IMG/VR virus record: IMGVR_UViG_3300046329_000062 | Coordinates: 1-22,181 of that record | DNA from: a virus | DNA: 22,181 bases | Direction: 5' to 3' (one strand) | Part shown: piece after piece, positions 165 to 12,840 of the stretch | How the letters are laid out: each line of letters starts with the position of its first letter | How positions within the stretch are numbered: position 1 is the first letter of the stretch | Notes under the pieces: generated by a model | Told to the model about the DNA's origin: nothing | The model's database searches: none | The model's input: the letters and a program-made list of their open reading frames with translations, nothing else | Program-made: the position numbers and the translations under genes

Positions 165-173
165 AGGGATACT

Positions 174-949: not shown

Positions 950-961
950 TCAAAATTAGAG

Positions 962-967
962 TATAAT
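962..967 (+). promoter_or_regulatory. -10 element TATAAT driving kissing-hairpin RNA A
   Basis: A perfect TATAAT lies 12 bases after the stop of the Panacea gene. The first hairpin of the downstream RNA starts 9 bases later, so transcription would begin nearly at the structure. It lacks the TG extension seen at the other sites, and no clear -35 hexamer is visible. Confidence 0.5.
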
Positions 968-975
968 ATAAAAAT

Positions 976-1048
976 AAACAGCGGCAACTGTTAAAAAAAC
1001 TTTTTACGCCCAGTTAGAACCTTTGCCGAGGTTTTAACTGGGTTTTTT
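976..1048 (+). ncRNA. Kissing-hairpin RNA A: two hairpins with complementary hexaloops, ending in a terminator
   Basis: Hairpin 1 is AACAG (977-981), hexaloop CGGCAA (982-987), CTGTT (988-992). Hairpin 2 has a 14-bp stem (1009-1022 with 1029-1042, one G-U pair) closing hexaloop TTGCCG (1023-1028), followed by six T. The two hexaloops are exact reverse complements. A second element at 7039-7135 has the same layout with different, again exactly complementary, hexaloops. The RNA precedes the Rha/KilAC gene, whose ATG is at 1067. It could be a free small RNA of about 75 nt or an attenuating leader. No named RNA class is recognised. Confidence 0.7.
1009..1048 (+). terminator. Intrinsic terminator hairpin upstream of the Rha/KilAC gene
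   Basis: A 14-bp stem whose 5' arm begins CCCAGTTAGAACC and whose 3' arm is GGTTTTAACTGGG is followed directly by TTTTTT. It ends 18 bases before the next start codon, so it must either terminate most transcripts (attenuation) or end a separate small RNA. Confidence 0.75.
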
Positions 1049-1066
1049 ATTATATAAAGGTTAAAA

Positions 1067-1744: not shown

Positions 1745-1758
1745 TTATATTCTAATTA

Positions 1759-1769
1759 TATGCTATAAT
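1759..1769 (+). promoter_or_regulatory. Extended -10 promoter TATGCTATAAT ahead of the ParB-like operon
   Basis: The 11-mer TATGCTATAAT occurs just after the antirepressor stop. It contains the TGnTATAAT extended -10 form and recurs at 9898, and with one change (TATGGTATAAT) at 7017 and 10351. No convincing -35 is visible. It would drive the ParB-like, helicase and primase genes through the palindrome at 1815. Confidence 0.7.
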
Positions 1770-1814
1770 AAAAATATAGGTAAAATACACAATAAATAAT
1801 TTTTTGGTAAATCA

Positions 1815-1845
1815 TAGAGTGCTACTAAATAGCACTCTAGGAATA
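1815..1845. repeat. Palindromic repeat copy 1 (candidate operator or centromere-like site)
   Basis: Arms TAGAGTGCTA and TAGCACTCTA flank a CTAAA centre and are followed by GGAATA. The same 31-base sequence recurs at 5006-5036. This copy lies between the extended -10 promoter and the ParB-like start codon. A protein bound here would block transcription, so autoregulation by the ParB-like protein is a reasonable guess. As RNA it would form a 10-bp hairpin just before the ribosome-binding site. Confidence 0.8.
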
Positions 1846-1866
1846 TAATAATATAAGGATAATTAA

Positions 1867-2655
1867 ATGTACGAATTACACCCACTTTGCACTTTATTCC
1901 CGCGAATGTCACCCGAAGAATTTAAAAATCTAAAAAATGACATTGAAGTATTTGGGTTAAGAGAGCCAATAATTACATATCAAAATATGATTTTAGACGG
2001 CGGAAACAGATATAAAGCTTGCATTGAAATTGGTTTAAGTCCAACTTTTAAAGAATATGAAAATGAATATGGAAACATTGGAGACTTCATTTTGAGTAAA
2101 AACTTATATCGCAGACATATTACGTTAAGTCAACAAGCTGCAATAGTTGCAAGCGTGTCAAATTGGGCTGGTACAGCTACTCACGGTACAAATAGGCATA
2201 ATAATCATGGCGTTGAAACAGTAAAAGACCGTGCATTAAAAAGTGGTGCAAGTATTGCGACACAGCGTAAAGCTGACGCAGTGGCTAAAGTTTCTTTAGA
2301 GTTGGCAAAAGAAGTAGCAAAAGGAAGCATTAGTTTAAATGAGGCAACTAAACAAGTCGCTCCGCAGTTAGTAGCGATAAAAAAAGATTATTCAGAAACT
2401 CAAATTCTAAAAGACGAAGTTAATGAACTAAAAGATTTTATAGCCGAGCAACAAATTCAAATAGCAACTAATACATATACAGGCGAAGAAATAGGATTAA
2501 CAGACATTATAGAATCGTTAAGGATTGAGTTAAGAGATGAACAATTATTAAGAAAAACAGTAGAATCACAGCGTGACTCGTACCTAAAAGAAAATCAAGA
2601 ATTAAAAAAACAAGTCGCATTTTGGCGTAAAAAATCAGAAAAAAACGGAGAGTAA
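1867..2655 (+). CDS. ParB-like DNA-binding protein with C-terminal coiled coil
   Basis: The 262-residue protein starts with a ParB/sulfiredoxin-fold domain (residues ~1-85): LKNDIEVFGLREPI and the signature GGNRYKA, followed by a conserved-looking NLYRRHIT stretch. A helix-turn-helix-like middle follows (LTLSQQ-type helix, then ALKSGASIATQRKADAVAKV, with EVAKGSISLNEA near 160). Residues ~180-262 are a heptad-rich charged coiled coil. The ATG follows AAGGAT. Identical palindromes flank the block from this gene to the primase, which suits a sequence-specific DNA binder that organises or regulates the replication module. It could equally be a ParB-fold nuclease or CTPase with another role; no partner ParA is present. 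Confidence 0.85.
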   Translation: MYELHPLCTLFPRMSPEEFKNLKNDIEVFGLREPIITYQNMILDGGNRYKACIEIGLSPTFKEYENEYGNIGDFILSKNLYRRHITLSQQAAIVASVSNWAGTATHGTNRHNNHGVETVKDRALKSGASIATQRKADAVAKVSLELAKEVAKGSISLNEATKQVAPQLVAIKKDYSETQILKDEVNELKDFIAEQQIQIATNTYTGEEIGLTDIIESLRIELRDEQLLRKTVESQRDSYLKENQELKKQVAFWRKKSEKNGE

Positions 2656-2658
2656 ATC

Positions 2659-4146
2659 GTGGAATTAATCTTAAGAAAACATCAGTCAAAAGCAGTTGAA
2701 CTTTTGCGAGAAGGATTTAAAAACGGCAAAATGAAACAGTTATTTGTAGCCCCAACCGGGGCAGGAAAGACCGAGCTTTCAATTGCAATGATGGAAGCAG
2801 TTATGCAAAAAGGTAAACGTGCAGCAATGATACTTGATCGCATAACGCTTTGCGACCAAACTAGCCAACGTTTATCAAAGTATGATTTAGACCACGGGGT
2901 TTTACAAAGTGGGCATTGGAGATATAAGCCCAGCGAACAAATACAAATTTGTTCTGCACAAACATTAGAAAAACGCGGTTCATTCCCGGCTATGGATTTA
3001 CTAATTGTAGACGAAGCACACTGCACTAGAAAAACAACGGCAGAATTTATTAAAAACAATCCAAATTTACGAGTTATTGGATTGACTGCAACACCTTTTA
3101 CCAAAGGTTTAGCTGATATTTACGAAAGCGTCGTCCAAACAATTACAACTTCTGAATTAATAGAGCAAGGATTACTTGCACCGCTTAGAGTTTATGTTGC
3201 CAAAGAAATTGATATGACGGGGGCAAAAAAGGTTGCTGGCGAATGGAGCGGAGACGAAGTTACAGAAAGAGGCATAAAAATTAGCGGCGACATAGTAAGC
3301 GAATGGCAAAAAAAGACTTATGAACATTTTGGTAAGCCAGAAAAAACAATAATATTTGCATCGGGAGTTGAACACTCAAACGACTTAGCCGAAAAGTTTC
3401 AAGCCGCTGGTTATAACTTTTTAGCATTGTCTTACAAAGACGACAGCGAATTTACTCAACAAGCGATTGAAGAATTTAGTAAACCAAACAGTGATATTAT
3501 TGGACTAATTAGCACCGATAAGCTAACCAAAGGGTTTGATGTATCTGATATCAAAATTGGTATTTCAGCACGTCCATTTAGTAAATCATTGAGTAGCCAT
3601 ATTCAACAAATGGGGCGGGTTATGCGTTCTCATAAAGACAAAGAATATGCACTATGGCTTGACCACAGTGGTAATTACTTGCGGTTTATGGACGACTGGG
3701 ACGATGTAAGAGAAAATGGAGTAGAAGAGCTATCGTCAAAAACAAAAAAAGATGTTGTCAAAAAAGAATTAAGCGACAAAGAAAAAGAAGCTGCTAAATG
3801 CCCTGTATGTAGTGCAGTATGGGCTAGAGGTGCTGATTCGTGTTTAAGCTGCGGGTTCGTACATAAAGGTAGAAATACTGTTGAAGTAGTACCCGCCGAG
3901 ATGCAAGAGATAGGCGAAAAAACAAAAGCAACAATAGTTGATAAGCAAGATTTTTACTCATCATTGCTAACTTACGCCCATTTTAAAAAATACAATGACG
4001 GCTGGGCAGCTAATACATACAAAGATAAATTTGGAGTGTGGCCCAGAAATCTTGAGAAGGTTTTAGCTGCCGAAGTATCATTTGATGTTAGAAATTTTAT
4101 AACCCACAAAAATATTGCTTTTAAATTTAAAAAAAATAAGGTGTAA
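2659..4146 (+). CDS. Superfamily 2 DNA helicase (DEAH box) with a zinc-binding C-terminal region
   Basis: The 495-residue protein starts with GTG, preceded by GGAG, 3 bases after the ParB-like stop. Motifs appear in order: RKHQSKAVELL (Q-like, residue 6), Walker A APTGAGKT (31-38), DEAH (118-121), TATP (143-146), and motif VI QMGRVMRS (317-324). Four cysteines (381, 384, 395, 398) in a CPVC-x10-CLSC arrangement form a probable zinc ribbon. The C-terminal ~80 residues (FKKYNDGWAANTYKDKFGVWP) form a segment often seen in phage helicases of this kind. It is likely to unwind DNA during phage replication together with the adjacent Toprim primase. Confidence 0.93.
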   Translation: MELILRKHQSKAVELLREGFKNGKMKQLFVAPTGAGKTELSIAMMEAVMQKGKRAAMILDRITLCDQTSQRLSKYDLDHGVLQSGHWRYKPSEQIQICSAQTLEKRGSFPAMDLLIVDEAHCTRKTTAEFIKNNPNLRVIGLTATPFTKGLADIYESVVQTITTSELIEQGLLAPLRVYVAKEIDMTGAKKVAGEWSGDEVTERGIKISGDIVSEWQKKTYEHFGKPEKTIIFASGVEHSNDLAEKFQAAGYNFLALSYKDDSEFTQQAIEEFSKPNSDIIGLISTDKLTKGFDVSDIKIGISARPFSKSLSSHIQQMGRVMRSHKDKEYALWLDHSGNYLRFMDDWDDVRENGVEELSSKTKKDVVKKELSDKEKEAAKCPVCSAVWARGADSCLSCGFVHKGRNTVEVVPAEMQEIGEKTKATIVDKQDFYSSLLTYAHFKKYNDGWAANTYKDKFGVWPRNLEKVLAAEVSFDVRNFITHKNIAFKFKKNKV

Positions 4147-4148
4147 AA

Positions 4149-4976
4149 ATGGACTTAATAACTTTTTGTAAAATGCACGAAATACTAATTGATTATACCC
4201 CGCCAATAGGCGTGTGGAAAAGATATGGCACTGTAGACCACCCAAATAAAAAAAATGGGGCGGTTAAATTTATGGGTGACTATGCACACGTACAAAACCA
4301 CGCAACTATGATTGAGCCTGTAACCTGGTTTATTGATAAAAACGAAAAAATAGATTATGAAAAAATAAAAAAAGATATAAAAAAAGCAGAAATTGACCGC
4401 CAAGAAATGCAACTAAAAGCAAAACTAAAAGCAAACTTTATTTTAAAATGCTGCAAAAATGACACACATCAATACCTAATAAATAAAGGCTTTAAAGATG
4501 AGCAAGGGCTTATATATACAGTAAACGACGAAAAATTATTAGTAATACCCATGCGTATTAGCAATGAATTGTGTGGGGTTCAATTAATAAATGAGCAAGG
4601 CGAAAAAAAGTTTTTATTTGGGGCTAAAACAGCGGGAGCTACTTACAAAATTGGAAATGGTGAGTATCATTTTATTTGTGAAGGCTATGCAACTGGCTTA
4701 AGCTTAAAAAGGGCGTTAAACGCTTTTAAAATAAAATATACTATACACGTATGCTTTAGTGCTGGAAACGCCTTAAACGCTTCAAAAACAATATTTAAAC
4801 CTATTTTTATAGCAGACAATGACAAAAGCGGTACAGGCGAAAGAGTAGCACGTGAAAGTTGTGCAAAATGGTGGATGCCTCCAGAAATAGGTTTTGATGC
4901 AAATGACTATGAGGTGTTGCACGGAACTTTTAGTTTAGGACTACAGTTAAAAAAATTAATTATTCAAAAAAATTAA
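4149..4976 (+). CDS. Toprim-domain primase-like protein
   Basis: The 275-residue protein begins 2 bases after the helicase. Toprim hallmarks are visible: the glutamate motif FICEGYATGLSLKRAL (Glu178) and the DxD motif IADNDKSGTGE (Asp223, Asp225), followed by a conserved-looking FDANDY. This resembles the Toprim_3/TraC-type primases found beside phage helicases. The N-terminal ~90 residues show no CHC2-type zinc finger, so template recognition must differ from DnaG or be supplied by the helicase's zinc ribbon. The operon ends here; a palindrome and an AT-rich inverted repeat follow. Confidence 0.88.
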   Translation: MDLITFCKMHEILIDYTPPIGVWKRYGTVDHPNKKNGAVKFMGDYAHVQNHATMIEPVTWFIDKNEKIDYEKIKKDIKKAEIDRQEMQLKAKLKANFILKCCKNDTHQYLINKGFKDEQGLIYTVNDEKLLVIPMRISNELCGVQLINEQGEKKFLFGAKTAGATYKIGNGEYHFICEGYATGLSLKRALNAFKIKYTIHVCFSAGNALNASKTIFKPIFIADNDKSGTGERVARESCAKWWMPPEIGFDANDYEVLHGTFSLGLQLKKLIIQKN

Positions 4977-5002
4977 ATTTTTGTTGTTTTTTTTATACAA
5001 TA

Positions 5003-5036
5003 TCCTAGAGTGCTACTAAATAGCACTCTAGGAATA
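5003..5036. repeat. Palindromic repeat copy 2
   Basis: The same palindrome as at 1815-1845, here with arms extended to 12 bp (CCTAGAGTGCTA with TAGCACTCTAGG, centre CTAAA). It lies 29 bases after the primase stop. No T-run follows it, so it does not look like an intrinsic terminator. Together with copy 1 it brackets the ParB-like, helicase and primase genes exactly. Confidence 0.8.
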
Positions 5037-5070
5037 GCATTTAAATTAACAAATAATATATTTATTTTGA

Positions 5071-5115
5071 ATATTTTAATAAAAATAATAAATTCAATGA
5101 TTTTTATTAAAATAT
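5071..5115. repeat. AT-only 16-bp perfect inverted repeat (possible origin element)
   Basis: ATATTTTAATAAAAAT (5071-5086) and its exact reverse complement (5100-5115) flank a 13-base spacer. Every base in the arms is A or T. It follows the primase gene and the second palindrome, a position and composition compatible with a replication origin or unwinding element. No iterons or DnaA boxes were recognised, so the origin call is an inference. Confidence 0.5.
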
Positions 5116-5135
5116 GATGTACAATTTAGTTGTTG

Positions 5136-5510
5136 TTTGATTAGTAGCTGGCACTTGCAATTATTATGAATAATCATAAGCCCGCAAGCAAAGTAAAAAG
5201 TAAACGATTAGACGAACTGGTGAGACCGCAACAGCCACCGTAACCAGTTTTTAAGCACACGGGGTGACCATAACAGTGCAATACCAAATGAGTGTCCGTA
5301 AAGGGCTAGAGAGACGGTAAATGGGGCGTAATACAACGCGTAACTCTCTAAATGTTAGATTTGTGTTAATACTAACATCCGTATAAAGCTCCGAAGTTTT
5401 GTCTGAATTGAATAAAAGACTACTTTTAGCTATCGGCATACACTAATCAATACTTATGTATTGCTTGGGTGAGTATTGCCGATTTTGCAACCGAGTTTGA
5501 ACTGATTGAA
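5136..5510 (+). ncRNA. Candidate large structured RNA (~375 nt) upstream of tRNA-Pro
   Basis: This stretch is richer in G and C than its flanks and has no credible ORF. A closing stem pairs 5136-5145 with 5501-5510 (10 bp, three wobbles). Inside are AACTGGT (5215) with ACCAGTT (5243); TAGAGAG (5307) with CTCTCTA (5344), enclosing GCGT/ACGC; ATGTTAG (5352) with CTAACAT (5372); and ATCGGCA (5432) with TGCCGAT (5477), enclosing CAATAC/GTATTG. A weak -10 TACAAT (5120-5125) lies 10 bases before the closing stem. Large phage RNAs next to tRNA genes (GOLLD, ROOL) are known, but membership cannot be shown here. Strand is inferred from the neighbours. Confidence 0.5.
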
Positions 5511-5516
5511 TATACT

Positions 5517-5528
5517 TACTATATAGTA
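5517..5528. repeat. 12-base perfect palindrome TACTATATAGTA
   Basis: A self-complementary 12-mer in an AT-rich stretch between the large RNA candidate and the micro-ORF at 5569. It could be a small operator or part of a promoter (TATA-rich run 5521-5534), but nothing decides between these. It could also be chance in such AT-rich sequence. Confidence 0.3.
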
Positions 5529-5568
5529 TATATATACGGGGAAAATAAAAATAATTTACAAGGTAATT

Positions 5569-5664
5569 ATGAAAAAAATAAAATCAAACAAAGAACTAAA
5601 AACAGACGTATTTATTGCTTATTTACTAATTTGCTTATTTATTAATAATAAGCTAAAATATTGA
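5569..5664 (+). CDS. Possible 31-residue micropeptide with a hydrophobic C-terminal segment
   Basis: ATG at 5569 is preceded by AAGG at a 5-base spacing, a credible ribosome-binding site. The peptide starts with a basic, lysine-rich MKKIKSNKELKTD and continues with a short hydrophobic stretch (VFIAYLLICLFI) before a lysine-containing end, so it could insert in a membrane. The stop is 5 bases before the tRNA-Pro gene. No family is recognised, and an AT-rich chance ORF is possible. Confidence 0.4.
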   Translation: MKKIKSNKELKTDVFIAYLLICLFINNKLKY

Positions 5665-5669
5665 TTGTT

Positions 5670-5746
5670 CGGAGTGTAGCACAGCCCGGTAGTGCGTCTG
5701 CTTTGGGAGCAGAAGGTCCAAGGTTCGAATCCTTGTACTCCGACCA
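5670..5746 (+). tRNA. tRNA-Pro (anticodon TGG)
   Basis: A 77-nt cloverleaf with encoded CCA. The acceptor CGGAGTG pairs with TACTCCG (one G-T). The anticodon stem TCTGC/GCAGA holds loop TTTGGGA, with anticodon TGG at 5704-5706. The T-arm CAAGG/CCTTG has the standard loop TTCGAAT, and the D-loop contains GG. All stems are sound, so the tRNA should work and read CCN proline codons, mainly CCA. It may be processed from the same transcript as the large RNA upstream. Confidence 0.95.
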
Positions 5747-5846
5747 ATTTTTTTATTTAAAGCTCCCTAGCTTGAACTCAATTTATTAATAAAACTTATT
5801 TATTTAAAACTTTAACTGCACAGTGTGTTACCTATCAACAGATGGC

Positions 5847-5873
5847 AAAAAATATAAAAAATATAAAAAATAT
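5847..5873. repeat. Three exact 9-base direct repeats AAAAAATAT
   Basis: AAAAAATAT is repeated three times without interruption. The array falls in a possible 25-codon ORF (5842-5919) that would encode KNI three times (MAKNIKNIKNIKDRLQAPQI...), but there is no ribosome-binding site before its ATG, so coding is doubtful. The rest of 5747-5929 holds only a small AAGCT/AGCTT hairpin at 5759-5772 after the tRNA and nothing else I can identify. Confidence 0.6.
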
Positions 5874-5929
5874 AAAAGATAGATTACAAGCCCCGCAAAT
5901 TCTTATAAAAACGCACTGAGTAAATTAAA

Positions 5930-6196
5930 ATGACTAATAAAAATAAATACGAGCATTTAGTAACCAGATTGCCATCTTTAGAAATTGCCAAAGAAGAGGC
6001 TAATTTAAAAGAATTATCAAAACTTTTAAGCAGTATGAGAATTGGTGATACTATAAAAGTAAATCATCATATCGCTTATGAGATAGGCTTATCATACGAA
6101 CAAGCAGTTAAGTTTGTAGATATGTCTATAGGTTATGGTAATCTACCATTGACTAATTTAGATGTTTGTACTCACATAACTAAACAAAGAGTATAA
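5930..6196 (+). CDS. Small phage protein of unknown function
   Basis: An 88-residue soluble protein with a charged N-terminal helix (LEIAKEEANLKELSKLLSSM) and a short middle with IGDTIKVNHHIAYEIGLSYEQAVKFVD. There is no membrane segment, cysteine cluster or known motif. The ribosome-binding site is poor (GAG 12 bases before the ATG). It stands alone between the tRNA region and a promoter that starts almost at its stop codon. It is probably real, because its amino acid composition is normal and no competing frame exists. Confidence 0.6.
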   Translation: MTNKNKYEHLVTRLPSLEIAKEEANLKELSKLLSSMRIGDTIKVNHHIAYEIGLSYEQAVKFVDMSIGYGNLPLTNLDVCTHITKQRV

Positions 6197-6199
6197 CTG

Positions 6200-6208
6200 T
6201 GTTATAAT
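6200..6208 (+). promoter_or_regulatory. Extended -10 promoter TGTTATAAT for pseudoknot RNA leader A
   Basis: TGTTATAAT fits the TGnTATAAT extended -10 form. The closing stem of the leader starts 9 bases downstream, where transcription is expected to begin. No -35 hexamer is evident. Confidence 0.65.
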
Positions 6209-6217
6209 ATTGTTTTA

Positions 6218-6284
6218 CAAGGCTAGGTGGATACACCGAAAAGCGGACTTCGCCCCCGCCTGCCTTGATATTTTTAAGGGCGAA
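6218..6284 (+). ncRNA. Structured leader A: three-way junction with pseudoknot, upstream of a Rha gene
   Basis: The closing stem CAAGGC (6218-6223) pairs with GCCTTG (6262-6267). Inside are hairpin GGTG-GATA-CACC (6226-6237), joiner GAAAA, and hairpin GCGG (6243-6246)/CCGC (6256-6259) with a 9-base loop. Loop bases TTCGCCC (6249-6255) are exactly complementary to GGGCGAA (6278-6284), giving a 7-bp pseudoknot. That strand ends 3 bases before the AAAAGG Shine-Dalgarno. The same architecture recurs at 9915-9978 with compensatory changes in the closing stem, the first hairpin and the pseudoknot. It most likely controls translation of the Rha gene. No named class is recognised. Confidence 0.8.
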
Positions 6285-6302
6285 TTTAAAAGGCGATTAA
6301 AT

Positions 6303-7013
6303 ATGAATTTAGTAAATAAAAACGTAACAATAACAAGTCTTGAACTTGTAGAATTTATCAATGCTAGTCGTACTGAAGGGGCTTCTGAACTTCGGCACGA
6401 TAACTTTATGGCTAAAGTACCACAAGTGTTAGGTGAAGCTAACGCTCCTAAATTTTTAGGAACGCAAACTTATGGCAATAACAACATCAGAAGTATATAC
6501 AACTTCCCAAAGCGTGAAGCGTGTTTAATGGCGATGTCATATAGTTATGACTTGCAAGCTAAAGTATTTGATAGAATGACAGAACTTGAGCAGTCTAATA
6601 AGCCATCGTTATCCATACAGCCAGTAGATTTACCAATTTTAGAAAAACTTAATATTATTGAGAAAGCAAAATTAACTTTAGGTAACGAAGATACAAAGCA
6701 GTTATTCCCATTAATTTGGCAGTCAATAAGCGATGGAATACAAAACGATATTGTCGCTATGTTTGGTAATACTACACCACTTATAAAATCTAATATAACA
6801 GTTCCACTTGATATTGTAGAAATTGCTAAACGAAATAACATTACAATACCACAAAACTTAAAAGGCCCTTTAGGTAAGTATGTTAAAGCAAACTCATCAG
6901 TACCATCAGTAGTTACAGAGCGTGTAATTAATGGTAGTATTAGACAAAGTAATGCTTATACTAATTATGACGAAATATTAAAATTAATCAAACAAAAGTT
7001 AAATTTAACATAA
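6303..7013 (+). CDS. Rha-family phage regulatory protein
   Basis: A 236-residue protein. The open frame reaches back to 6210, but those codons lie in the structured leader; the ATG at 6303 after AAAAGG is preferred. Residues ~1-100 form a Rha domain (TSLELVEFINASR, LRHDNFMAKVPQVLGE, then YNFPKREACLMAMSYSYDLQAKVFDRMTELE). The C-terminal ~50 residues (LKGPLGKYVKANSSVPSVV, TERVINGSIRQSNAY) resemble a small domain common at the ends of phage Rha and antirepressor proteins. There is no KilAC domain, unlike the 1067 gene. It probably acts in lysogeny or host-range control; the target is unknown. Confidence 0.85.
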   Translation: MNLVNKNVTITSLELVEFINASRTEGASELRHDNFMAKVPQVLGEANAPKFLGTQTYGNNNIRSIYNFPKREACLMAMSYSYDLQAKVFDRMTELEQSNKPSLSIQPVDLPILEKLNIIEKAKLTLGNEDTKQLFPLIWQSISDGIQNDIVAMFGNTTPLIKSNITVPLDIVEIAKRNNITIPQNLKGPLGKYVKANSSVPSVVTERVINGSIRQSNAYTNYDEILKLIKQKLNLT

Positions 7014-7016
7014 TTA

Positions 7017-7027
7017 TATGGTATAAT
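7017..7027 (+). promoter_or_regulatory. Extended -10 promoter TATGGTATAAT for kissing-hairpin RNA B
   Basis: The 11-mer TATGGTATAAT starts 3 bases after the Rha stop codon and is identical to the one at 10351. The first hairpin of the RNA starts 11 bases after the -10. A weak TTAAAT sits at the -35 position, so the extended -10 probably carries recognition. Confidence 0.7.
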
Positions 7028-7038
7028 ATATATATAAT

Positions 7039-7135
7039 ATTAGAAATTGATGCACGAACATCTATAGTTTCTAATCTATTTTTTAGCCCGTTAGTTTATG
7101 CGTTCGTGCGCATAGACTAGCGGGTTTCTTTTTTT
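7039..7135 (+). ncRNA. Kissing-hairpin RNA B: complementary hexaloops plus terminator
   Basis: Hairpin 1 has an 8-bp outer stem ATTAGAAA (7039-7046)/TTTCTAAT (7068-7075) and an inner stem GATG/CATC closing hexaloop CACGAA (7053-7058). Hairpin 2 has a 16-bp stem (7087-7102 with 7109-7124, two G-T pairs) closing hexaloop TTCGTG (7103-7108), followed by a T-rich run. The two hexaloops are exact complements, as in RNA A but with a different sequence. The transcript would be about 100 nt. It precedes the accessory cassette starting at 7150. Confidence 0.75.
7087..7135 (+). terminator. Strong intrinsic terminator ahead of the accessory cassette
   Basis: A 16-bp stem with CCCG at its base and CGGG on the 3' side is followed by TTTCTTTTTTT. 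It ends about 15 bases before the ATG at 7150. Transcripts reaching the cassette must pass it, so either attenuation or a separate small RNA is expected. Confidence 0.85.
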
Positions 7136-7149
7136 ATAAAAGTAAATTT

Positions 7150-7617
7150 ATGAAAAATAAACGTATAAAAAAGTATAAACCAAAGTCAATAGATTTGACT
7201 GGCGGTATATTCAAGTTACAGCAAATTGACTTATCAAACACTTATGTATCAAAAGAGTATGCTTTGGCAGAGTATACAAGGTCAAACAATGCGTTTATAA
7301 AACTTAAATCAAACACTTGTACGACTAGTGATTTTGATGATTTAGTGAACGGTTTGCATTTAATCAAAGAATTAACTAGGTTCGTTGAAGTTGATCTAGA
7401 TATTAACGAAAGATACAGCAATGTTGCACGTCGGCTTAGTTTAGTATTTGAAACTGCACAGAAGGTATGTATGTATATATGCCCGCCAGATATGTTTGAC
7501 GATATTGATAAGCTACTGATTTACTTATTAAAAGTTTTACCGAAAATCTATCTTGCTGAATATTACACAGCATACGCAAATATTAAAGTAATGATTGAAA
7601 ATTCTAAGGAGTTATAA
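7150..7617 (+). CDS. Hypothetical phage protein, first gene of the accessory cassette
   Basis: A 155-residue protein with a basic N-terminus (MKNKRIKKYKPKS). Helical segments follow (ELTRFVEVDLDINERYSNVARRL, DDIDKLLIYLLKVLPKIYLAEYY). No family is recognised, and there is no signal peptide or clear membrane segment. The ribosome-binding site is weak (AAAAGT). A strong terminator sits just upstream, and four further genes follow within a few bases of each other, so it opens a small operon. Confidence 0.75.
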   Translation: MKNKRIKKYKPKSIDLTGGIFKLQQIDLSNTYVSKEYALAEYTRSNNAFIKLKSNTCTTSDFDDLVNGLHLIKELTRFVEVDLDINERYSNVARRLSLVFETAQKVCMYICPPDMFDDIDKLLIYLLKVLPKIYLAEYYTAYANIKVMIENSKEL

Positions 7618-7620
7618 AAA

Positions 7621-7752
7621 ATGGATTATTTAATAGTTTTTAATTTGATAATGTTGGTTTGGATAACATTTATTGCTTATTTAATTTTAATATTATTAAG
7701 TCAAGAGAACGAAGAGTTCTTTAATGAAATAACCGATTTTTACGAGTATTAA
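7621..7752 (+). CDS. Small single-pass membrane protein (43 residues)
   Basis: ATG at 7621 follows AAGGAG with good spacing, one of the best ribosome-binding sites in this cassette. The peptide has a long hydrophobic segment at residues 3-27 (YLIVFNLIMLVWITFIAYLI and onward) and an acidic tail (SQENEEFFNEITDFYEY). It lies 3 bases after the previous stop and 1 base before the next start. The function is unknown. A membrane-anchored accessory or exclusion factor is possible but not shown. Confidence 0.75.
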   Translation: MDYLIVFNLIMLVWITFIAYLILILLSQENEEFFNEITDFYEY

Positions 7753-7753
7753 A

Positions 7754-7999
7754 ATGGAAAAGATAAACAATATACAATTTACACTTAAACGTGTTGAGCA
7801 AGTAGAGTTATTAAGGCGGCTACTTTATAAAGTACAGGAGCTTAAACATAAAGGGGTTATGGATATTCAAAACGAAATATTAGTTTTAGAAACTATGGCT
7901 TTAAATTTAACTAATTTTAATAGTAAAACTTGTGAAAATTCATTCATAGGTTTTTTAGAAAATAAAGCAATAGAAGAGGTGGAAGAATGGCAAAAGTAA
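7754..7999 (+). CDS. Small helical phage protein of unknown function
   Basis: An 81-residue protein, largely helical, with a leucine-rich amphipathic first half (VELLRRLLYKVQELKHKGVMDIQNEILVLE, seen as heptad-like spacing) and an acidic end (AIEEVEEWQK). It starts 1 base after the micro membrane protein and overlaps the next gene by 13 bases, so it is translated within the cassette. No family is recognised. Confidence 0.7.
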   Translation: MEKINNIQFTLKRVEQVELLRRLLYKVQELKHKGVMDIQNEILVLETMALNLTNFNSKTCENSFIGFLENKAIEEVEEWQK

Positions 8000-8466
8000 A
8001 ATTTATAATTCAGATGGGGAAATACAAGGTTTATGATTTTCCGTGTAATATAAAAATGCTGCCTAGTACTTTATACTTAACAGCTAATCAAATAGAAGAT
8101 GAGACGTTAGACTTTATAAAAAATGTTATCATAGGCAGTACAGCAATAGTATTTACTAATAACCCATACGCTCTTAACACATTTATGTTAGTTGATAAAG
8201 CGATGAGGTTAATAACAACTGATTCGCTTTCAAACCCTGACATAGACATAGAACGCTATGTGCAAGGTGGTCTATTGGATTGTGTAAAAACTCTTCTTGC
8301 ATTAGGTATTTATAGTATAGATGTACAGGCATATCAAGATGGTGTGGAGATACCGAAAGAGTATGATGTTATATCAGATGATAATATACTTAACAATCAT
8401 TTAAAATCATTCAACGATAGGTACACAGATTTACTTGAATTAGAACTGCTATTAAATAATGAATAA
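7987..8466 (+). CDS. Hypothetical protein paired with the downstream ATPase
   Basis: A 159-residue protein starting at an ATG preceded by GAGGTGG. The N-terminus looks like beta-strands (KVKFIIQMGKYKVYDF), and the rest is mixed with an acidic C-terminal half (DDNILNNHLKSFNDRYTDLLELELLLNNE). No catalytic motif was found and no family is recognised. It is separated by 5 bases from the ABC-type ATPase gene, so the two may be partners, but this is positional inference. Confidence 0.75.
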   Translation: MAKVKFIIQMGKYKVYDFPCNIKMLPSTLYLTANQIEDETLDFIKNVIIGSTAIVFTNNPYALNTFMLVDKAMRLITTDSLSNPDIDIERYVQGGLLDCVKTLLALGIYSIDVQAYQDGVEIPKEYDVISDDNILNNHLKSFNDRYTDLLELELLLNNE

Positions 8467-8471
8467 AAAAA

Positions 8472-9080
8472 ATGGAAAATGAAAAAATAAACAGGTCAAA
8501 AGGCAAGGCACAACGTAAAGCGATTAATTTTGACGAACTTTATGCTGAGGTAAAGGCTGGTAAATTAATTGCACTAACCGGTAAAAATGGAATTGGTAAA
8601 ACTTATTCTCTTAATATTTTAATATACAACCTATGTAAAAATACAATGGAATTTGACAATAGAAGTGTATTATTTAATACAAGAAGTATGGGGTCTGATA
8701 AAAGTGGTTATGTTGGATACGCTTCAGTTAGCAAAGCTATAGGCGGTGAAGCTCTTGCTACATTTTTAGAAAGAAAATTTCATAGTTCACATGGACAATC
8801 TATAGCATCAGATATTGTTGAATTTTTACTAATGACGAAAAACGAGGATGTTATATTTTTTGATGAGCCTGAAACCGCTTTGGATTTAAACGCAAAAAAT
8901 GAGATATTAAAAATATTTAATCGGGACAAGAAGTTTAGACCAATTATTATCGCTACAAACTGTCCTTTCTTTATATTAAAATCGGACGTTATTTTTGAAT
9001 TAACTAAAAAAGAATGTAGAAAAATTAGTGCTATAGAAAGAGTTGTTTTAAAAAACAATATTATAAAAATGATTGATTAA
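8472..9080 (+). CDS. Single-domain ABC-type ATPase (AAA, COG3910-like)
   Basis: A 202-residue protein. Walker A is GKNGIGKT (37-44). A signature-like SHGQS lies at 106-110, and Walker B with the catalytic acid is VIFFDEPETALD (DEPE 131-134). The order and the SHGQ...DEPE spacing match predicted ATPases of the COG3910 type, found singly in bacteria and phages. The usual H-loop (ATHSP) is ATNCP here, so the switch histidine is replaced by Asn163. There are no membrane segments, so it is not a transporter on its own. Stand-alone ATPases like this appear in defence, exclusion and DNA-repair settings; its role here is open. The gene ends inside a terminator-like hairpin. Confidence 0.85.
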   Translation: MENEKINRSKGKAQRKAINFDELYAEVKAGKLIALTGKNGIGKTYSLNILIYNLCKNTMEFDNRSVLFNTRSMGSDKSGYVGYASVSKAIGGEALATFLERKFHSSHGQSIASDIVEFLLMTKNEDVIFFDEPETALDLNAKNEILKIFNRDKKFRPIIIATNCPFFILKSDVIFELTKKECRKISAIERVVLKNNIIKMID

Positions 9081-9102
9081 GTAAACAGGCTTACTTAATT
9101 TT
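9076..9102 (+). terminator. Hairpin with T-run at the end of the ATPase gene
   Basis: ATTAAGTAA (9076-9084) and TTACTTAAT (9091-9099) form a perfect 9-bp stem with hexaloop ACAGGC, followed by TTTT. The stem is AT-rich, so termination may be partial. It overlaps the ATPase stop codon and closes the cassette that begins after the terminator at 7087. Confidence 0.6.
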
Positions 9103-9131
9103 AAAGTAATGAATAAACAAGGAGAAATAAA

Positions 9132-9380
9132 ATGAGAGGTTTAATTTTATTAATTTGTGCTACTTTACTATTTGGTTGTGGTGAAAAAGATGATACTAAA
9201 TGGAAGCAGGCTGGCTGTCCGATTTACAAAGCGATTTACAAAGATTATGCTGGGGTTTGGCTTCGTGCCTATGAATTTCTTGTGGAAGAAGGGAAAACTT
9301 TTATTGAACAAAAAGGTGCGGGTGGTCTTTATTATGTTGAAGCTGAAGTAAAATATACTTGTAAAGGAATAACAAAATGA
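9132..9380 (+). CDS. Small phage lipoprotein
   Basis: An 82-residue protein with a short lipoprotein signal peptide: basic start MRGL, hydrophobic LILLICATLL, then lipobox LLFGC with Cys16 as the acylated residue. The mature part has about 66 residues and two further cysteines (C29 and C77), which could form a disulfide in the periplasm. The ATG follows a strong AAGGAG. The stop overlaps the next gene in an ATGA junction. Phage lipoproteins of this size often mediate superinfection exclusion or serve as lysis spanins. Its place outside the lysis block favours exclusion, but that is inference. Confidence 0.8.
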   Translation: MRGLILLICATLLFGCGEKDDTKWKQAGCPIYKAIYKDYAGVWLRAYEFLVEEGKTFIEQKGAGGLYYVEAEVKYTCKGITK

Positions 9381-9907
9381 GTAATAACAAAGTAGACGAA
9401 GTAAACAATCCGCCGTGGTATGAATCTGAAGGTGGCGTGAAGTGTATAGAGATAACAAGACACATGAATAGTAACCTAGGACACGTTATTAGATACGTAT
9501 GGCGTGCAGGTAAAAAAGGTGAGGGCGTAGAGTTTGCAATTAAAGATTTAAATAAGGCAATGGTTTATTTAAAAGACGAAATACAAAGGCTAAAAGATAA
9601 CGAGGCTAAAAATAAAAAGGCGGAGGAGATAAAAGAAGTTAGCAGTGAAAATGAAATTTGCTATGAAAGATTGAAGATAATCTATAATGATATAAATGAC
9701 CTGCAAAAGCAAAAACTATACTTTATGAGTATTGATGCAGAGTTCACAACAGACCCAACTATGTTAAAGTCCGATGCAATTAAAAGACTTGATGAAAAGT
9801 TATATAAGTTAGAAAGTGAGGCTATTACAGAGCATAAAAAGATCAATAAAATATATAATAGGCTATTATATAAACAAAAGATAGCCTTAACACAATCTAT
9901 GCTATAA
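9377..9907 (+). CDS. DUF3310-domain protein with coiled-coil C-terminus
   Basis: The N-terminal ~70 residues match DUF3310 (often annotated as phage nucleotide kinase-like): NPPWYESEGGVKCIEITRHM, then GHVIRYVWRAGKKGEGVEFAIKDLNKAMVYLKDE. In typical members the first motif is NPxHY, so the histidine is replaced by Trp-Tyr (PPWY) here. The remaining ~100 residues form a charged helical extension not typical of the short family members (176 residues in all). It overlaps the lipoprotein gene by 4 bases. Its biochemical role is unproven in the family. Confidence 0.85.
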   Translation: MSNNKVDEVNNPPWYESEGGVKCIEITRHMNSNLGHVIRYVWRAGKKGEGVEFAIKDLNKAMVYLKDEIQRLKDNEAKNKKAEEIKEVSSENEICYERLKIIYNDINDLQKQKLYFMSIDAEFTTDPTMLKSDAIKRLDEKLYKLESEAITEHKKINKIYNRLLYKQKIALTQSML

Positions 9908-9908
9908 T
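9898..9908 (+). promoter_or_regulatory. Extended -10 promoter TATGCTATAAT for pseudoknot RNA leader B
   Basis: This 11-mer is identical to that at 1759. It overlaps the stop codon of the DUF3310 gene. The leader's closing stem begins 6 bases after the -10, so the transcript should start at the first paired base. No -35 hexamer is evident. Confidence 0.7.
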
Positions 9909-9914
9909 CTATAT

Positions 9915-9978
9915 TAAGGCTAGGGGGATACCCCGAAAAGCGGCTTCATTCACCGCCTGCCTTATTTAACTTGAATGG
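9915..9978 (+). ncRNA. Structured leader B: three-way junction with pseudoknot, upstream of a Rha gene
   Basis: The closing stem TAAGGC (9915-9920) pairs with GCCTTA (9959-9964). Hairpin GGGG-GATA-CCCC (9923-9934), joiner GAAAA (9935-9939) and hairpin GCGG/CCGC with a 9-base loop (9944-9952) follow. Loop bases CATTCA (9947-9952) pair with TGAATG (9972-9977), with one further T-G pair. The layout, loop size, GATA loop and GAAAA joiner equal those of leader A (6218-6284), while paired bases differ in a compensatory way. The pseudoknot strand ends 5 bases before AAAGGAA, the ribosome-binding site of the Rha gene at 9998. Confidence 0.8.
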
Positions 9979-9997
9979 TTTTTAAAGGAATGATTAA

Positions 9998-10348
9998 ATG
10001 AAACTATTAATGAGTAGCCGCAGGATTGCGGAATTGACAGGTAAAAAACATTCTAATGTATTGCGTGATATTCGTAATATGTTACAAGTGCTTGGCATAG
10101 AAAAATCAACTTATAGCTGCACTTATTTAGGTGGTAACGGTAGTAACTGGGCAATGTATCTTTTACCGTATAACGAGACTATTTGCTTGCTTACTGGTTA
10201 TAATATGGATATGAAAATGGCAGTAATAAATGCTTTGCAACAGGTAAATAAATCTAATAAACCAGCCTGCATAGAAACTTATATTAAAGAGTTAGAAAAA
10301 TTAATTAAAATTAAAAAATATTATAAATATATATACCTAAAATTATAA
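9998..10348 (+). CDS. Short Rha-family protein (Rha domain only)
   Basis: A 116-residue protein consisting almost only of the Rha domain: MSSRRIAELTGKKHSNVLRDIRNML, then a YLLPYNETICLLTGYNMDMKMAVINALQQV block. A short basic helix (YIKELEKLIKIKKYYKYIYLKL) replaces the C-terminal domains of the other two Rha proteins. The ATG follows AAAGGAA, directly after the pseudoknot leader. It could act as a competitor of, or dimer partner to, the longer paralogues; that is inference. Confidence 0.85.
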   Translation: MKLLMSSRRIAELTGKKHSNVLRDIRNMLQVLGIEKSTYSCTYLGGNGSNWAMYLLPYNETICLLTGYNMDMKMAVINALQQVNKSNKPACIETYIKELEKLIKIKKYYKYIYLKL

Positions 10349-10350
10349 GA

Positions 10351-10361
10351 TATGGTATAAT
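10351..10361 (+). promoter_or_regulatory. Extended -10 promoter TATGGTATAAT for the tRNA-like RNA and tRNA cluster
   Basis: Identical 11-mer to that at 7017. The 5' end of the tRNA-like acceptor stem lies 9 bases after the -10 (10370), where transcription would begin. The tRNA-Trp, tRNA-Arg and ninB genes follow on the same strand and may share the transcript. Confidence 0.7.
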
Positions 10362-10369
10362 ATCTTTGT

Positions 10370-10472
10370 TGGTGCGTAAGATGATATATATCATATGAGT
10401 AAAGAAACCCGCTGAATAGGACTACACATCCAGTCGGAGGCGGAAGTTGCTGGTGAAAACCCAGCCGCACCA
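10370..10472 (+). ncRNA. tRNA-like structured RNA of unknown class
   Basis: TGGTGCG (10370-10376) pairs with CGCACCA (10466-10472), a 7-bp acceptor-like stem. It stacks directly on GCTGG-(TGAAAAC)-CCAGC (10449-10465), a 5-bp stem with a 7-base loop, exactly the size of a tRNA T-arm but without the TTC loop start. The middle holds ATGAT/ATCAT (10381-10394), CCGC (10409)/GCGG (10440) and, inside it, GACT/AGTC. No CCA is encoded. Normal tRNAs follow at 10540 and 10621. The remaining spacer 10473-10539 shows only a weak CGCCA/TGGCG pairing. Confidence 0.55.
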
Positions 10473-10539
10473 CTTACAAAACACAGTCGCCACGCCTAAT
10501 TCTTTACAGAAAATGCGAAGCCTTGGCGGTTATTACATA

Positions 10540-10614
10540 GGTGGGTAAGTGTTACGGTAGCACACGGGATTCCAAATCCTTGAAGAGGTAGTTCAATTCT
10601 ATCACCCACCGCCA
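10540..10614 (+). tRNA. tRNA-Trp (anticodon CCA)
   Basis: A 75-nt cloverleaf with encoded CCA. The acceptor GGTGGGT/ACCCACC is perfect and the discriminator base is G, as in bacterial tRNA-Trp. The D-stem is GTG/CAC. Anticodon loop TTCCAAA carries CCA at 10572-10574. The T-arm GGTAG/CTATC holds loop TTCAATT. The outermost anticodon-stem pair (27-43) is C-T, a mismatch, and the next is G-T, so this arm is weaker than usual. Confidence 0.92.
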
Positions 10615-10620
10615 AACAAT

Positions 10621-10695
10621 ACGGCGTTCGTATAAAGGATAATACATTGGTCTTCTACACCTATAATGGGAGTTCAATTCTCTCACGCCGTACCA
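10621..10695 (+). tRNA. tRNA-Arg (anticodon TCT)
   Basis: A 75-nt cloverleaf with encoded CCA and a perfect acceptor ACGGCGT/ACGCCGT. The D-stem is GTA/TAC. Anticodon loop CTTCTAC carries TCT at 10654-10656, reading AGA/AGG, codons favoured in AT-rich phage genes. The T-arm GGGAG/CTCTC holds loop TTCAATT. The anticodon stem has one T-T mismatch (28-42), and the variable loop has four bases. It lies 6 bases after tRNA-Trp. Confidence 0.92.
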
Positions 10696-10707
10696 ATAAA
10701 GAATAAT

Positions 10708-11118
10708 ATGAAACGTAAAATTATTATCAATCAACAAACTTTAAACGATGTAAAAAATTTAATCAGTTCTTTTTTAAAATTAAAGATTAATAATAATGTT
10801 GCACTGTATCTTGAAGAAGATAAATTAACAGTTAAAAAACAAACTAGAAGTCTTGAACAGAATGATAAGATGTGGGCGATGCTAACTGACGTTAGTAATC
10901 AATGCGTACACTTCAATAAAAAGTATTCTCCTGAAGACTGGAAAGATATATTTACGGCTTCAATCAATGATGAATTAAGAGTTACACCTACAATTAACGG
11001 CGATAAGATGATTTTATTGGGGTTAAGTACAAGTAAGATGAATAAGGTTCAACTATCTAATTTAATAGCGTTTATTCAAGCACATGGCAATTTAAACTGT
11101 GTAAAATGGACGGCGTAA
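10708..11118 (+). CDS. ninB: NinB-like recombination protein
   Basis: The protein has 136 residues from the ATG at 10708; the frame stays open to 10666, but that part lies in tRNA-Arg. It matches lambda NinB (Orf): TRSLEQNDKMWAMLTDVSNQ, then YSPEDWKDIFTASI and GLSTSKMNKVQLSNLIAFIQAHG, ending CVKWTA. NinB binds single-stranded DNA and SSB and supports Red-type recombination in place of RecFOR. It overlaps ninG by 13 bases. The ribosome-binding site is poor (AAAGAAT), so expression may depend on processing of the tRNA-bearing transcript. Confidence 0.92.
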   Translation: MKRKIIINQQTLNDVKNLISSFLKLKINNNVALYLEEDKLTVKKQTRSLEQNDKMWAMLTDVSNQCVHFNKKYSPEDWKDIFTASINDELRVTPTINGDKMILLGLSTSKMNKVQLSNLIAFIQAHGNLNCVKWTA

Positions 11119-11684
11119 AAAAGCATACTTGCAAGGTATGCAAAGTAAAGTATATTAAGACTAAGCCATTGCAGTCTGTTTGTGGTTTTGAATGTTCGTT
11201 AGTTTTAAGCAAAACAAAAACTAAAAAAGAAAAATCAATCAAATTAATAATTAAAGACGATAAAAAAAATACCAAACAAAAACTTGAGGCACTAAAAACT
11301 AAGCCCGAATTAGTCAAAGAATTACAAATAGTATTTAATGCTTATATCAGACAGCGAGACTACGGCAATGACTGTATCAGTTGTCAAAAGCCAATTTTAT
11401 GGGGTTTAAGAAGCACTGGAGGGGTTTGTGATGCTGGACACTATCTAAGTATAGGTTCACGTCCTAATCTTCGGTTTAACAAAGATAACGTAAATGCACA
11501 GTGCAAACACTGTAATAACTTTTTAGCGGGCAATGTTTTAGAGTATCGCAAAGGTTTAATAAATAAAATAGGACTGCAAAAAGTTGAAGCGTTAGAGTGT
11601 GATCAATCAGTCAATAAGTATTCGCGAGAAGATTTAAAAACTATGATTAGCGAATACAAGTTAAAAATTAAAAATAAACTATGA
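11106..11684 (+). CDS. ninG: NinG (Rap) recombination endonuclease
   Basis: A 192-residue protein. An N-terminal zinc site has C9, C12, C26 and C30 (CKVC ... CGFEC). A lysine-rich linker follows. The C-terminal core matches NinG/Rap: CISCQKPILWGLR, DAGHYLSIGSRPNLRF, NVNAQCKHCNNFLAGN, then YRKGLINKIGLQKVE. Rap is a Holliday-junction and branched-DNA endonuclease in lambda-type phages. It overlaps ninB upstream and the HigA-like gene downstream (ATGA). Finding the lambda nin pair next to a Mu-type tail block shows the mosaic nature of this phage. Confidence 0.94.
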   Translation: MDGVKKHTCKVCKVKYIKTKPLQSVCGFECSLVLSKTKTKKEKSIKLIIKDDKKNTKQKLEALKTKPELVKELQIVFNAYIRQRDYGNDCISCQKPILWGLRSTGGVCDAGHYLSIGSRPNLRFNKDNVNAQCKHCNNFLAGNVLEYRKGLINKIGLQKVEALECDQSVNKYSREDLKTMISEYKLKIKNKL

Positions 11685-11947
11685 AAAACCAATTACCAAA
11701 CAATAAATTGCCAGCCGTTCACCCCGGTGAATTTTTAGCGGAAATATTAAAAGATACTTCAATGACACCAACTGTTATTTCACGTAATATTGGCGTACCA
11801 GTTGTTAAAATAATTAGTATTTTAAAATGTAAAAGCCCGATTAATGATCAATTAGCTTTATCTTTTGGCAATTATTTTGGTCAGTCTAAACAATACTGGT
11901 TAAATTTACAAACTGCTTATGACTTAAAAGTTAATTCATCAAAATGA
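11681..11947 (+). CDS. HigA-like helix-turn-helix protein (orphan antitoxin-type regulator)
   Basis: An 88-residue protein with the HigA/VapI layout: VHPGEFLAEILKD near residue 14, an XRE-type helix-turn-helix (TPTVISRNIGVPVVKIISIL, then INDQLALSFGNYFG), and the family ending YWLNLQTAYDLK. HigA normally sits next to the HigB ribonuclease, but no HigB-like ORF is adjacent. Instead it overlaps ninG upstream and a Panacea-domain gene downstream, each by 4 bases. It probably binds DNA as a regulator, or works together with the Panacea protein. Confidence 0.9.
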   Translation: MKNQLPNNKLPAVHPGEFLAEILKDTSMTPTVISRNIGVPVVKIISILKCKSPINDQLALSFGNYFGQSKQYWLNLQTAYDLKVNSSK

Positions 11948-12456
11948 TTTATTCGGCAAAATCAATTGCTAATGAGTTTCTTAATCTTGCTCAAGAAAAA
12001 GGAGAGGAAATTAACTTAATGAAACTTCGCAGTTTGGTTTACTATGCCCACGGTTGGTATGTAGGAATGACGGGTAAAAGATTAATCAACGAAGAGATAA
12101 AAGCAGGTAAATTTGGTATTGTTATTAATTCTTTATATCAAGAGTTTATAAAATATGGTGCAAGTCCAATTGAAAAAAAAGCAGCTGAAAAAGTAATTCA
12201 GTTTGGTGGTTTTACTATAAATGAAGTGGGCACTCCAACAGACAATGAAATAAAAAAGTTTATTAAAAATGTTTGGAATGCTTACGGTAAATTTACTGCT
12301 ATTGCATTGTTTGATATGACGCACGCTGTAGGAACTCCGTGGGACAATACTATTAAAGATAGCGAAACAATTAATTGTGATATTCCTTTTGAATTAATTA
12401 AAAGTCATTTTGAACAGGCAGTTGAAAATTTAAGGAATAAAAAATCTATTGTTTGA
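11944..12456 (+). CDS. Second Panacea-domain (DUF4065) protein
   Basis: A 170-residue protein with the Panacea pattern: SAKSIANEFLNLAQEKGEEI, core LRSLVYYAHGWYVGMTGKRL, FGIVINSLYQEFIKYG, and the late motif LFDMTHAVGTPWDNT. It is a clear paralogue of the protein at 470-949. It is translationally coupled (ATGA) to the HigA-like gene, so the pair could act as a split form of an HTH plus Panacea antitoxin. No candidate toxin lies immediately downstream, because the next gene is convergent. Its last 27 bases overlap the end of the M15 peptidase gene on the other strand. Confidence 0.87.
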   Translation: MIYSAKSIANEFLNLAQEKGEEINLMKLRSLVYYAHGWYVGMTGKRLINEEIKAGKFGIVINSLYQEFIKYGASPIEKKAAEKVIQFGGFTINEVGTPTDNEIKKFIKNVWNAYGKFTAIALFDMTHAVGTPWDNTIKDSETINCDIPFELIKSHFEQAVENLRNKKSIV

Positions 12457-12840
12457 TTTTGGTACTACTTTTTGTAAGTGTACCCAAGTCTTAGTGTATT
12501 TAAAGTCTTCAACATAAAGCCCGTTATCTTCCAATGCTTTTAAACCCGCTGGTGTTTTTAGCCAACGTTGTAATATTTGTTGTCTGTCTTGAATGTCCAC
12601 TGCATTGCCCATCATGTGATGGCTTCGTTTAGCCGAGCCTTTAATACTTGCATTAATTGCTTTAGTACGATATCCACTAGATACCACCAATAGTATGTTG
12701 CCGTTGTCTTTCTCAAAAGCTACCCATAATGCATTAACTTTAATAATCAATACTTCGGCATTAATTAAGTGTTCTTCTAGTATTTCGCTGGCAGCAATAG
12801 GTTTTTTATTACGTGAGAAATATTCTTGTTTAGTAATCAT
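12430..12840 (-). CDS. M15-family peptidase, endolysin
   Basis: A 136-residue protein with the M15 zinc-peptidase signature SxHxxGxAxD (Ser73, His75, Gly78, Ala80, Asp82) after SSGYRT, and a distal WVHLQ with His121; His75, Asp82 and His121 are the expected zinc ligands. M15_3 enzymes cleave peptide stems in peptidoglycan, so this is the likely endolysin. There is no signal peptide, so release would depend on a holin, and the gene directly upstream is a holin candidate. The ribosome-binding site is weak, and the start overlaps the preceding gene's stop. Confidence 0.9.
   Translation of the reverse strand: MITKQEYFSRNKKPIAASEILEEHLINAEVLIIKVNALWVAFEKDNGNILLVVSSGYRTKAINASIKGSAKRSHHMMGNAVDIQDRQQILQRWLKTPAGLKALEDNGLYVEDFKYTKTWVHLQKVVPKSNNRFFIP

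Follow-up and report, generated by a model that had tools for sequence, protein, structure and literature searches.

Leader RNAs of the int-alpA Family in a Viral DNA Stretch: Candidate C4-like Anti-Shine–Dalgarno RNAs

Introduction

In a stretch of viral DNA of 22,181 nucleotides (positions 1 to 22,181 of IMG/VR record IMGVR_UViG_3300046329_000062, called here the window), two short leaders with the same fold stand in front of anti-repressor-like genes. These leaders, designated A and B, raise the question of which RNA they carry, what the loop of this RNA pairs with, and whether the RNA belongs to one kind of gene. The RNA family itself is already known, and both leaders are members of it. 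What appears to be new here is a candidate, testable function, represented by the match of the loop to a Shine–Dalgarno sequence, the hairpin around that sequence, and the three-way co-variation of the loop with its two partners.

The Two Leaders of the Window

The features of leader B and of the gene presumed to be its target are the following.

9900..9908, + strand: predicted extended -10 promoter of leader B, TGCTATAAT (sequence, pattern scan)
9913..9978, + strand: int-alpA RNA, copy B, Rfam span including site 1 (RF02996, 46.8 bits)
9915..9964, + strand: three-way-junction core (sequence, covariance-model alignment, fold of the isolated RNA)
9915–9920 / 9959–9964, + strand: closing stem, TAAGGC / GCCTTA (sequence)
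9923–9934, + strand: hairpin 1, GGGG-GATA-CCCC (sequence)
9940–9956, + strand: hairpin 2, GCGG-CTTCATTCA-CCGC, with its stem at 9940–9943/9953–9956 (sequence)
9944..9952, + strand: loop of hairpin 2, CTTCATTCA, the specificity segment (complementary to sites 1 and 2; swap tests)
9972..9978, + strand: site 1, TGAATGG, the pseudoknot partner of an earlier note on this DNA (6.5/7 paired with the loop)
9981..9998, + strand: small A-U hairpin, TTTAA / TTAAA, with the loop AGGAATGA showing the Shine–Dalgarno sequence (family test; weak alone)
9988..9993, + strand: site 2, GAATGA, overlapping the Shine–Dalgarno sequence AAAGGA (6-bp Watson–Crick match to the loop)
9998..10348, + strand: Rha-domain gene of 116 aa, presumed target of leader B (Phage_pRha, PF09669, E 4.2e-14; PHROG anti-repressor)

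The plan of leader A (6218–6284) is identical to that of leader B.

6200..6208, + strand: predicted extended -10 promoter of leader A, TGTTATAAT (pattern scan)
6216..6280, + strand: int-alpA RNA, copy A, Rfam span (RF02996, 48.5 bits)
6218–6223 / 6262–6267, + strand: closing stem, CAAGGC / GCCTTG (sequence)
6247..6255, + strand: loop of hairpin 2, ACTTCGCCC (sequence, register test)
6278..6284, + strand: site 1, GGGCGAA (7/7 paired with the loop)
6285..6301, + strand: Shine–Dalgarno hairpin, TTTAA / TTAAA, with the loop AAGGCGA (family test)
6292..6296, + strand: site 2, GGCGA, overlapping the Shine–Dalgarno sequence AAGG (5-bp Watson–Crick match to the loop)
6303..7013, + strand: anti-repressor-like gene of 236 aa, presumed target of leader A (PHROG phrog_63, E 1.5e-13)

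Direct reading of the sequence confirms what the earlier note had put forward, namely that the two leaders share a fold with compensatory differences. The outer pair of the closing stem is C-G in A and U-A in B, and hairpin 1, GGTG-GATA-CACC in A and GGGG-GATA-CCCC in B, differs by one double change, in its third pair. The stem of hairpin 2 (GCGG/CCGC), the GAAAA joiner, the GATA loop and the length of the nine-nucleotide loop (ACTTCGCCC and CTTCATTCA) are unchanged. The loop pairs with site 1 as TTCGCCC/GGGCGAA in A and as TCATTCA/TGAATGG, with one G-U, in B; when these pairings are aligned from the 3' end of the loop, five of the seven pairs differ on both sides. The spacing to the start codon, which had been described as equal, is 35 nt after the closing stem in A and 33 nt in B, so the claim is right within 2 nt. 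The pseudoknot partner of the loop also stands as described, but a second partner of the same loop, at the Shine–Dalgarno sequence, had been overlooked in both leaders.

In fold prediction, isolated leader B RNA adopts the three-way-junction structure. The minimum-free-energy fold of leader A alone is a different structure, which counts against the explanation preferred below.

The TGnTATAAT boxes at 6200 and 9900 would put the transcription start at the closing-stem base; for leader B, the start site is predicted at about 9914–9916, which is this base. Altogether, five extended -10 boxes of this form lie on the + strand of the window, at 1761, 6200, 7019, 9900 and 10353. Several of them directly follow the end of a gene and are succeeded by a structured leader or RNA region, and the box at 9900 overlaps the stop codon of a DUF3310 gene.

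Membership in the int-alpA Family

Both leaders are recognized by the Rfam model of int-alpA (RF02996), with scores of 48.5 and 46.8 bits against a gathering cut-off of 35.8 and with matches over model positions 1–71. The covariance-model alignment places the closing stem around two hairpins, with CUAG and GAAAA as junction segments. The consensus of RF02996 extends to the complement of site 1 (AgGG facing CCuU in the loop), and since it already holds this loop-pairing tail, the pseudoknot is probably part of the original motif. Thus, the real RNA family with a conserved pairing of loop and tail that had been postulated from the two copies is already present in Rfam. Leaders A and B agree with int-alpA in the closing stem, the two hairpins, the GAAAA joiner and a 3' tail that reaches site 1, and no difference in the RNA is seen; the Rfam model ends before the Shine–Dalgarno site and the hairpin around it.

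The original description of int-alpA is reportedly that of Weinberg and colleagues from 2017. In the searchable open-access literature, no function of int-alpA and no account of the Shine–Dalgarno site and hairpin was found, and subscription literature may already describe them; among the open-access full texts searched, a single paper mentions int-alpA, as a genome match only, and none mentions RF02996.

Relatives were collected with a pattern made of the conserved junction and the stem of hairpin 2, which excludes every site tested later. This search yielded at least 120 stretches from IMG/VR and at least 120 from GTDB, and the sample drawn from the matches listed comprises 204 non-redundant loci with 150 distinct loops. 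The hosts of the GTDB matches include Pseudomonadota, Planctomycetota, Chloroflexota, Nitrospirae, Hydrogenedentes and a relative of Bacillus. In three taxonomic samples, int-alpA is present in 55 of 125, 20 of 198 and 26 of 294 genomes. A pattern of the window's own type, with GATA, gave no matches in IMG/VR, and therefore no close relatives of leaders A and B were found. The excess of promoter-like sequences is family-wide, as -10-like boxes occur at positions -26 to -15 from CUAG in 69 of the 204 loci, compared with 15 in a control stretch.

Most phage contigs carry a single copy of int-alpA, and some genomes carry several. A Planctomycetota genome (L480, G312:C35:150-337) has seven matches, two of them about 50 nt apart. 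At another locus (L469:1430-1590), two int-alpA RNAs are arranged in tandem at a distance of 8 nt; the first of them keeps site 1 but lacks a separate gene, and the Shine–Dalgarno region of the second RNA is matched by its loop as well.

One Loop and Two Downstream Sites

Across the family, the loop of hairpin 2 has two partners downstream, and both change together with it. At least two separate 5-bp Watson–Crick sites for the RNA's own loop lie within 50 nt downstream for 96 of 146 distinct loops, compared with 11.1 ± 2.9 when loops are swapped. When only one locus is kept for each unrelated downstream protein and loop core, both sites are found in 57 of 86 loci, compared with 4.4 ± 2.0 after swapping (maximum of 13 in 1000 shuffles), and the control region of 50 nt upstream gives only 2 of 86. 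In an independent set found by the covariance model, in which the RNAs were located within the loci by a looser pattern that missed about half of them, both sites occur in 22 of 27 cases, against 4.4 ± 1.7 in the swapped control. The earlier note had asked whether homologues lose the pseudoknot pairing; it is kept, with a loop's own sites far above the swapped-loop controls.

A test in a fixed 7-nt register gives z = 22.5 for site 1 and z = 15.4 for site 2, and every position of the 7-mer shows all four types of Watson–Crick pairs. Register-free swap tests were used in place of column-based covariation; the MAFFT alignment of the Shine–Dalgarno hairpin region was out of register. Shine–Dalgarno sequences are biased in composition, for which the swap controls allow. 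Counted back from the start codon, the two sites peak at about 26 and 13 nt, and 97 of 101 matches at site 2 overlap the purine core of the Shine–Dalgarno sequence. The pairing with site 1 as a rule extends to the last 3' nucleotide of the loop; in the pairing with site 2, a single nucleotide mostly stays unpaired. In leaders of orthologous genes, all three elements change together; an example is given by two loci in front of the same downstream protein, where loop, site 1 and site 2 are TTTCGTCAC, GTGACGA and GACGAGG in one (L009) and TTCCTTCAC, GTGAAGG and TGAAGGG in the other (L028). The pairings of the loop are short (5–8 bp), which is a point against the preferred explanation.

The second site is also structured. 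In 91 of 130 leaders, the flanks of site 2 form a stem of ≥5 bp around it, compared with 29.7 ± 3.8 when the 5' flanks are exchanged. Because this stem encloses site 2, the RNA loop would pair with another loop, an arrangement known from kissing complexes. In the window, the A-U Shine–Dalgarno hairpins gave no stable fold alone in ViennaRNA, a further point against the preferred explanation.

Genes Behind the RNA

Both leaders had been thought to precede Rha-domain genes. This is correct for leader B, whose gene carries Phage_pRha; for leader A it is not, as its gene has no Pfam match, Rha included, and is only a relative of the anti-repressor phrog_63. Counts made from both sides led to the rejection of a general link to Rha genes: Phage_pRha is found in 3 of 110 downstream ORFs, and in the fetched flanks around 96 relatives of the two Rha-type proteins encoded in the window, the pattern detected an int-alpA-like leader in none.

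The downstream proteins form about 150 clusters among 195 ORFs. Those named by Pfam and PHROGs include DUF1376 or primosomal proteins, endonuclease VII, HNH and Dam proteins, and others. Among annotated phages and in an E. coli prophage, int-alpA stands in front of a small ORF, and the RNA with its gene either separates the lysis genes from the terminase genes or is flanked by structural genes. The RNA and its gene therefore look like a self-contained accessory cassette.

Comparison with C4, CI and IsrK

The closest parallel in architecture is offered by C4 of phages P1 and P7 and CI of P4. The C4 RNA blocks translation of ant by pairing around the ribosome-binding site (PMC12197685). In the annotation of the P1 record, C4 occupies 48343–48419, its target a2 (48423–48429) lies directly behind, and b2 (48452–48459) precedes icd. 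CI of P4 scores as a member of the C4 family (RF01695) and has the same layout, in which the loop CCTGTG faces CACAGGAGG before the next gene and TTCTCAC faces GTGAGAA behind the RNA. Like these RNAs, int-alpA is a leader upstream of the gene it is proposed to control, it consists of a closing stem with two hairpins, the loop of its second hairpin matches the Shine–Dalgarno sequence of the next gene, and another target follows immediately after the RNA.

Unlike C4 and CI, int-alpA addresses both targets with a single loop, and its sequence is unrelated. It has no a' linker; the linker after hairpin 2 measures 2 nt, and it is the loop of this hairpin that also matches site 1. The genes differ as well, since ant of P1 and kil of P4 belong to immunity or killing loci, whereas int-alpA serves very diverse genes. 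A search of positions 1–12500 of the window with the covariance model of RF01695 gave no match at E ≤ 1, and direct membership in the C4 family is rejected on this ground and by the missing a' linker. Thus, int-alpA would work like C4 and is not filed as C4, because it has one loop for both targets and a different sequence. Upstream targets corresponding to a1 and b1 are not expected in the window because the promoter adjoins the RNA.

IsrK, a leader RNA of the Gifsy-1 prophage, regulates translation of the downstream operon orf45-anrP by base pairing (PMC4825925). It resembles the int-alpA leaders (IsrK is RF01394) in being a prophage leader RNA above the operon that it controls, and it differs in its fold, its terminator and its activating role in trans. 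No match to RF01394 was present in the window.

Proposed Function and Alternatives

The arrangement described above suggests that int-alpA is a C4-like anti-Shine–Dalgarno RNA which, as a short RNA acting in trans, represses translation of the downstream gene of a phage cassette (probability roughly 0.6, judged from sequence). Taken by itself, translational control of the downstream gene through pairing of the loop with the Shine–Dalgarno sequence is quite probable; by analogy with C4, action of a short RNA in trans may be added as the least certain step. A short transcript would have its 5' end at the closing-stem base, and the loop of hairpin 2 would serve as an anti-Shine–Dalgarno segment matched to the gene directly downstream. 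By pairing with site 2 in the loop of the small hairpin, it would block ribosome entry and turn the gene off. The two pairings draw on the same loop nucleotides, so that a loop can engage only one site at a time. In a full-length transcript, site 1 would capture the loop as a pseudoknot and leave the Shine–Dalgarno sequence free; as a competitor for these nucleotides, site 1 may serve in cis as a decoy and so shield the full-length message. A truncated RNA that stops short of site 1, through termination or cleavage, would have its loop free and could repress in trans, as C4 does. The sequences show the fold, the two pairings, the way they co-vary and their location at the Shine–Dalgarno sequence; translational repression, the role of site 1, the release of a short RNA and its action in trans are deduced from these. 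Intrinsic termination directly after the RNA was rejected as a general rule, as TTTT is found there in only 26 of 130 leaders.

The loops of A and B show no match to each other's sites beyond background, as would be expected if both acted in trans without cross-talk. In some other genomes, co-resident copies carry identical loops, and divergence of the loops is therefore no firm argument for trans action; the orthogonality of co-resident copies, once considered as proof of it, gave a mixed picture and was set aside.

Much of this evidence could also be read without a trans-acting RNA. In a purely cis-acting leader with two states, the loop would switch within one mRNA between site 1 (gene on) and site 2 (gene off), and a protein or ligand on the conserved unpaired CUAG, GAAAA and CUG segments would bias the switch. 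Such a device would suit the use of the same loop nucleotides by both sites within about 40 nt of one transcript, the promoter-like boxes that adjoin the RNA, and the junction nucleotides, conserved even among members found by the covariance model. However, part of the conservation of CUAG and GAAAA is imposed, in the first set by the search pattern and in the covariance-model set by the way the RNAs were located. Moreover, the sequence suggests no ligand or protein partner, and the architectural analogues, C4 (PMC12197685) and CI (PMC4825925), are trans-acting antisense RNAs. A switch confined to one mRNA is judged rather unlikely.

It is improbable, too, that int-alpA is a small RNA with its main targets elsewhere, in the host or a rival phage, and that the downstream matches are a by-product of autoregulation. 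The typing of int-alpA as an sRNA gene in Rfam and the diversity of its loops (150 distinct ones in 204 loci, among the matches listed) would accord with distant targets, but in most relatives the loop co-varies with the adjacent downstream sites. As it does so regardless of the gene, these sites are taken to be the selected partners. An RNA specific to Rha genes and functional through the pseudoknot alone, as the earlier note proposed, could explain why both copies in the window precede Rha or anti-repressor-like genes; given the very diverse downstream genes elsewhere and the absence of a leader beside the 96 Rha relatives, this is highly improbable.

The C4-like reading gives the loop a concrete partner, the Shine–Dalgarno sequence of the next gene, which makes the function of int-alpA directly testable, and targets could be predicted from about 9 nt of loop sequence. 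It would widen the type of control known from C4 and CI beyond immunity genes, to many accessory genes of phages. A broader and more tentative proposal is that int-alpA may act as a portable translational lock, in which a single loop would pair either with a decoy directly behind the RNA or with the Shine–Dalgarno hairpin, one pairing excluding the other, and which moves with very diverse phage genes while the loop and both partners are rewritten together. If this is true, the lock would amount to the C4 principle realized with one loop and an integral decoy.

Other Structured Regions of the Window

Further structured regions were observed in the window. At 961–1069, a promoter and a leader with a strong terminator-like hairpin precede the Rha-ANT gene at 1067, forming a third combination of promoter and leader. 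In it, AACCTTT (1018–1024) is complementary to AAAGGTT (1056–1062) at the Shine–Dalgarno sequence of the gene, and no Rfam match was obtained for this leader. Another leader, at 7022–7149 before the gene at 7150, contains a hairpin with GCACGAAC (7052–7059), which is complementary to GTTCGTGC (7102–7109). The latter segment lies in and beside the loop of a strong terminator-like hairpin, and kissing loops are possible.

An identical hairpin, TAGAGTGCTACTAAATAGCACTCTA, occurs in two intergenic positions, 1815–1839 and 5006–5030; the former copy precedes a ParB-like gene at 1867, and the latter follows a gene that ends at 4976. About 450 bases at 5100–5560, just upstream of a tRNA (5670–5743), are without a convincing ORF and show extensive predicted structure, with no Rfam match at E ≤ 1. 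Finally, a structured non-coding stretch at 10356–10540 separates the Rha gene from two paired tRNA genes (10540–10611 and 10621–10692).
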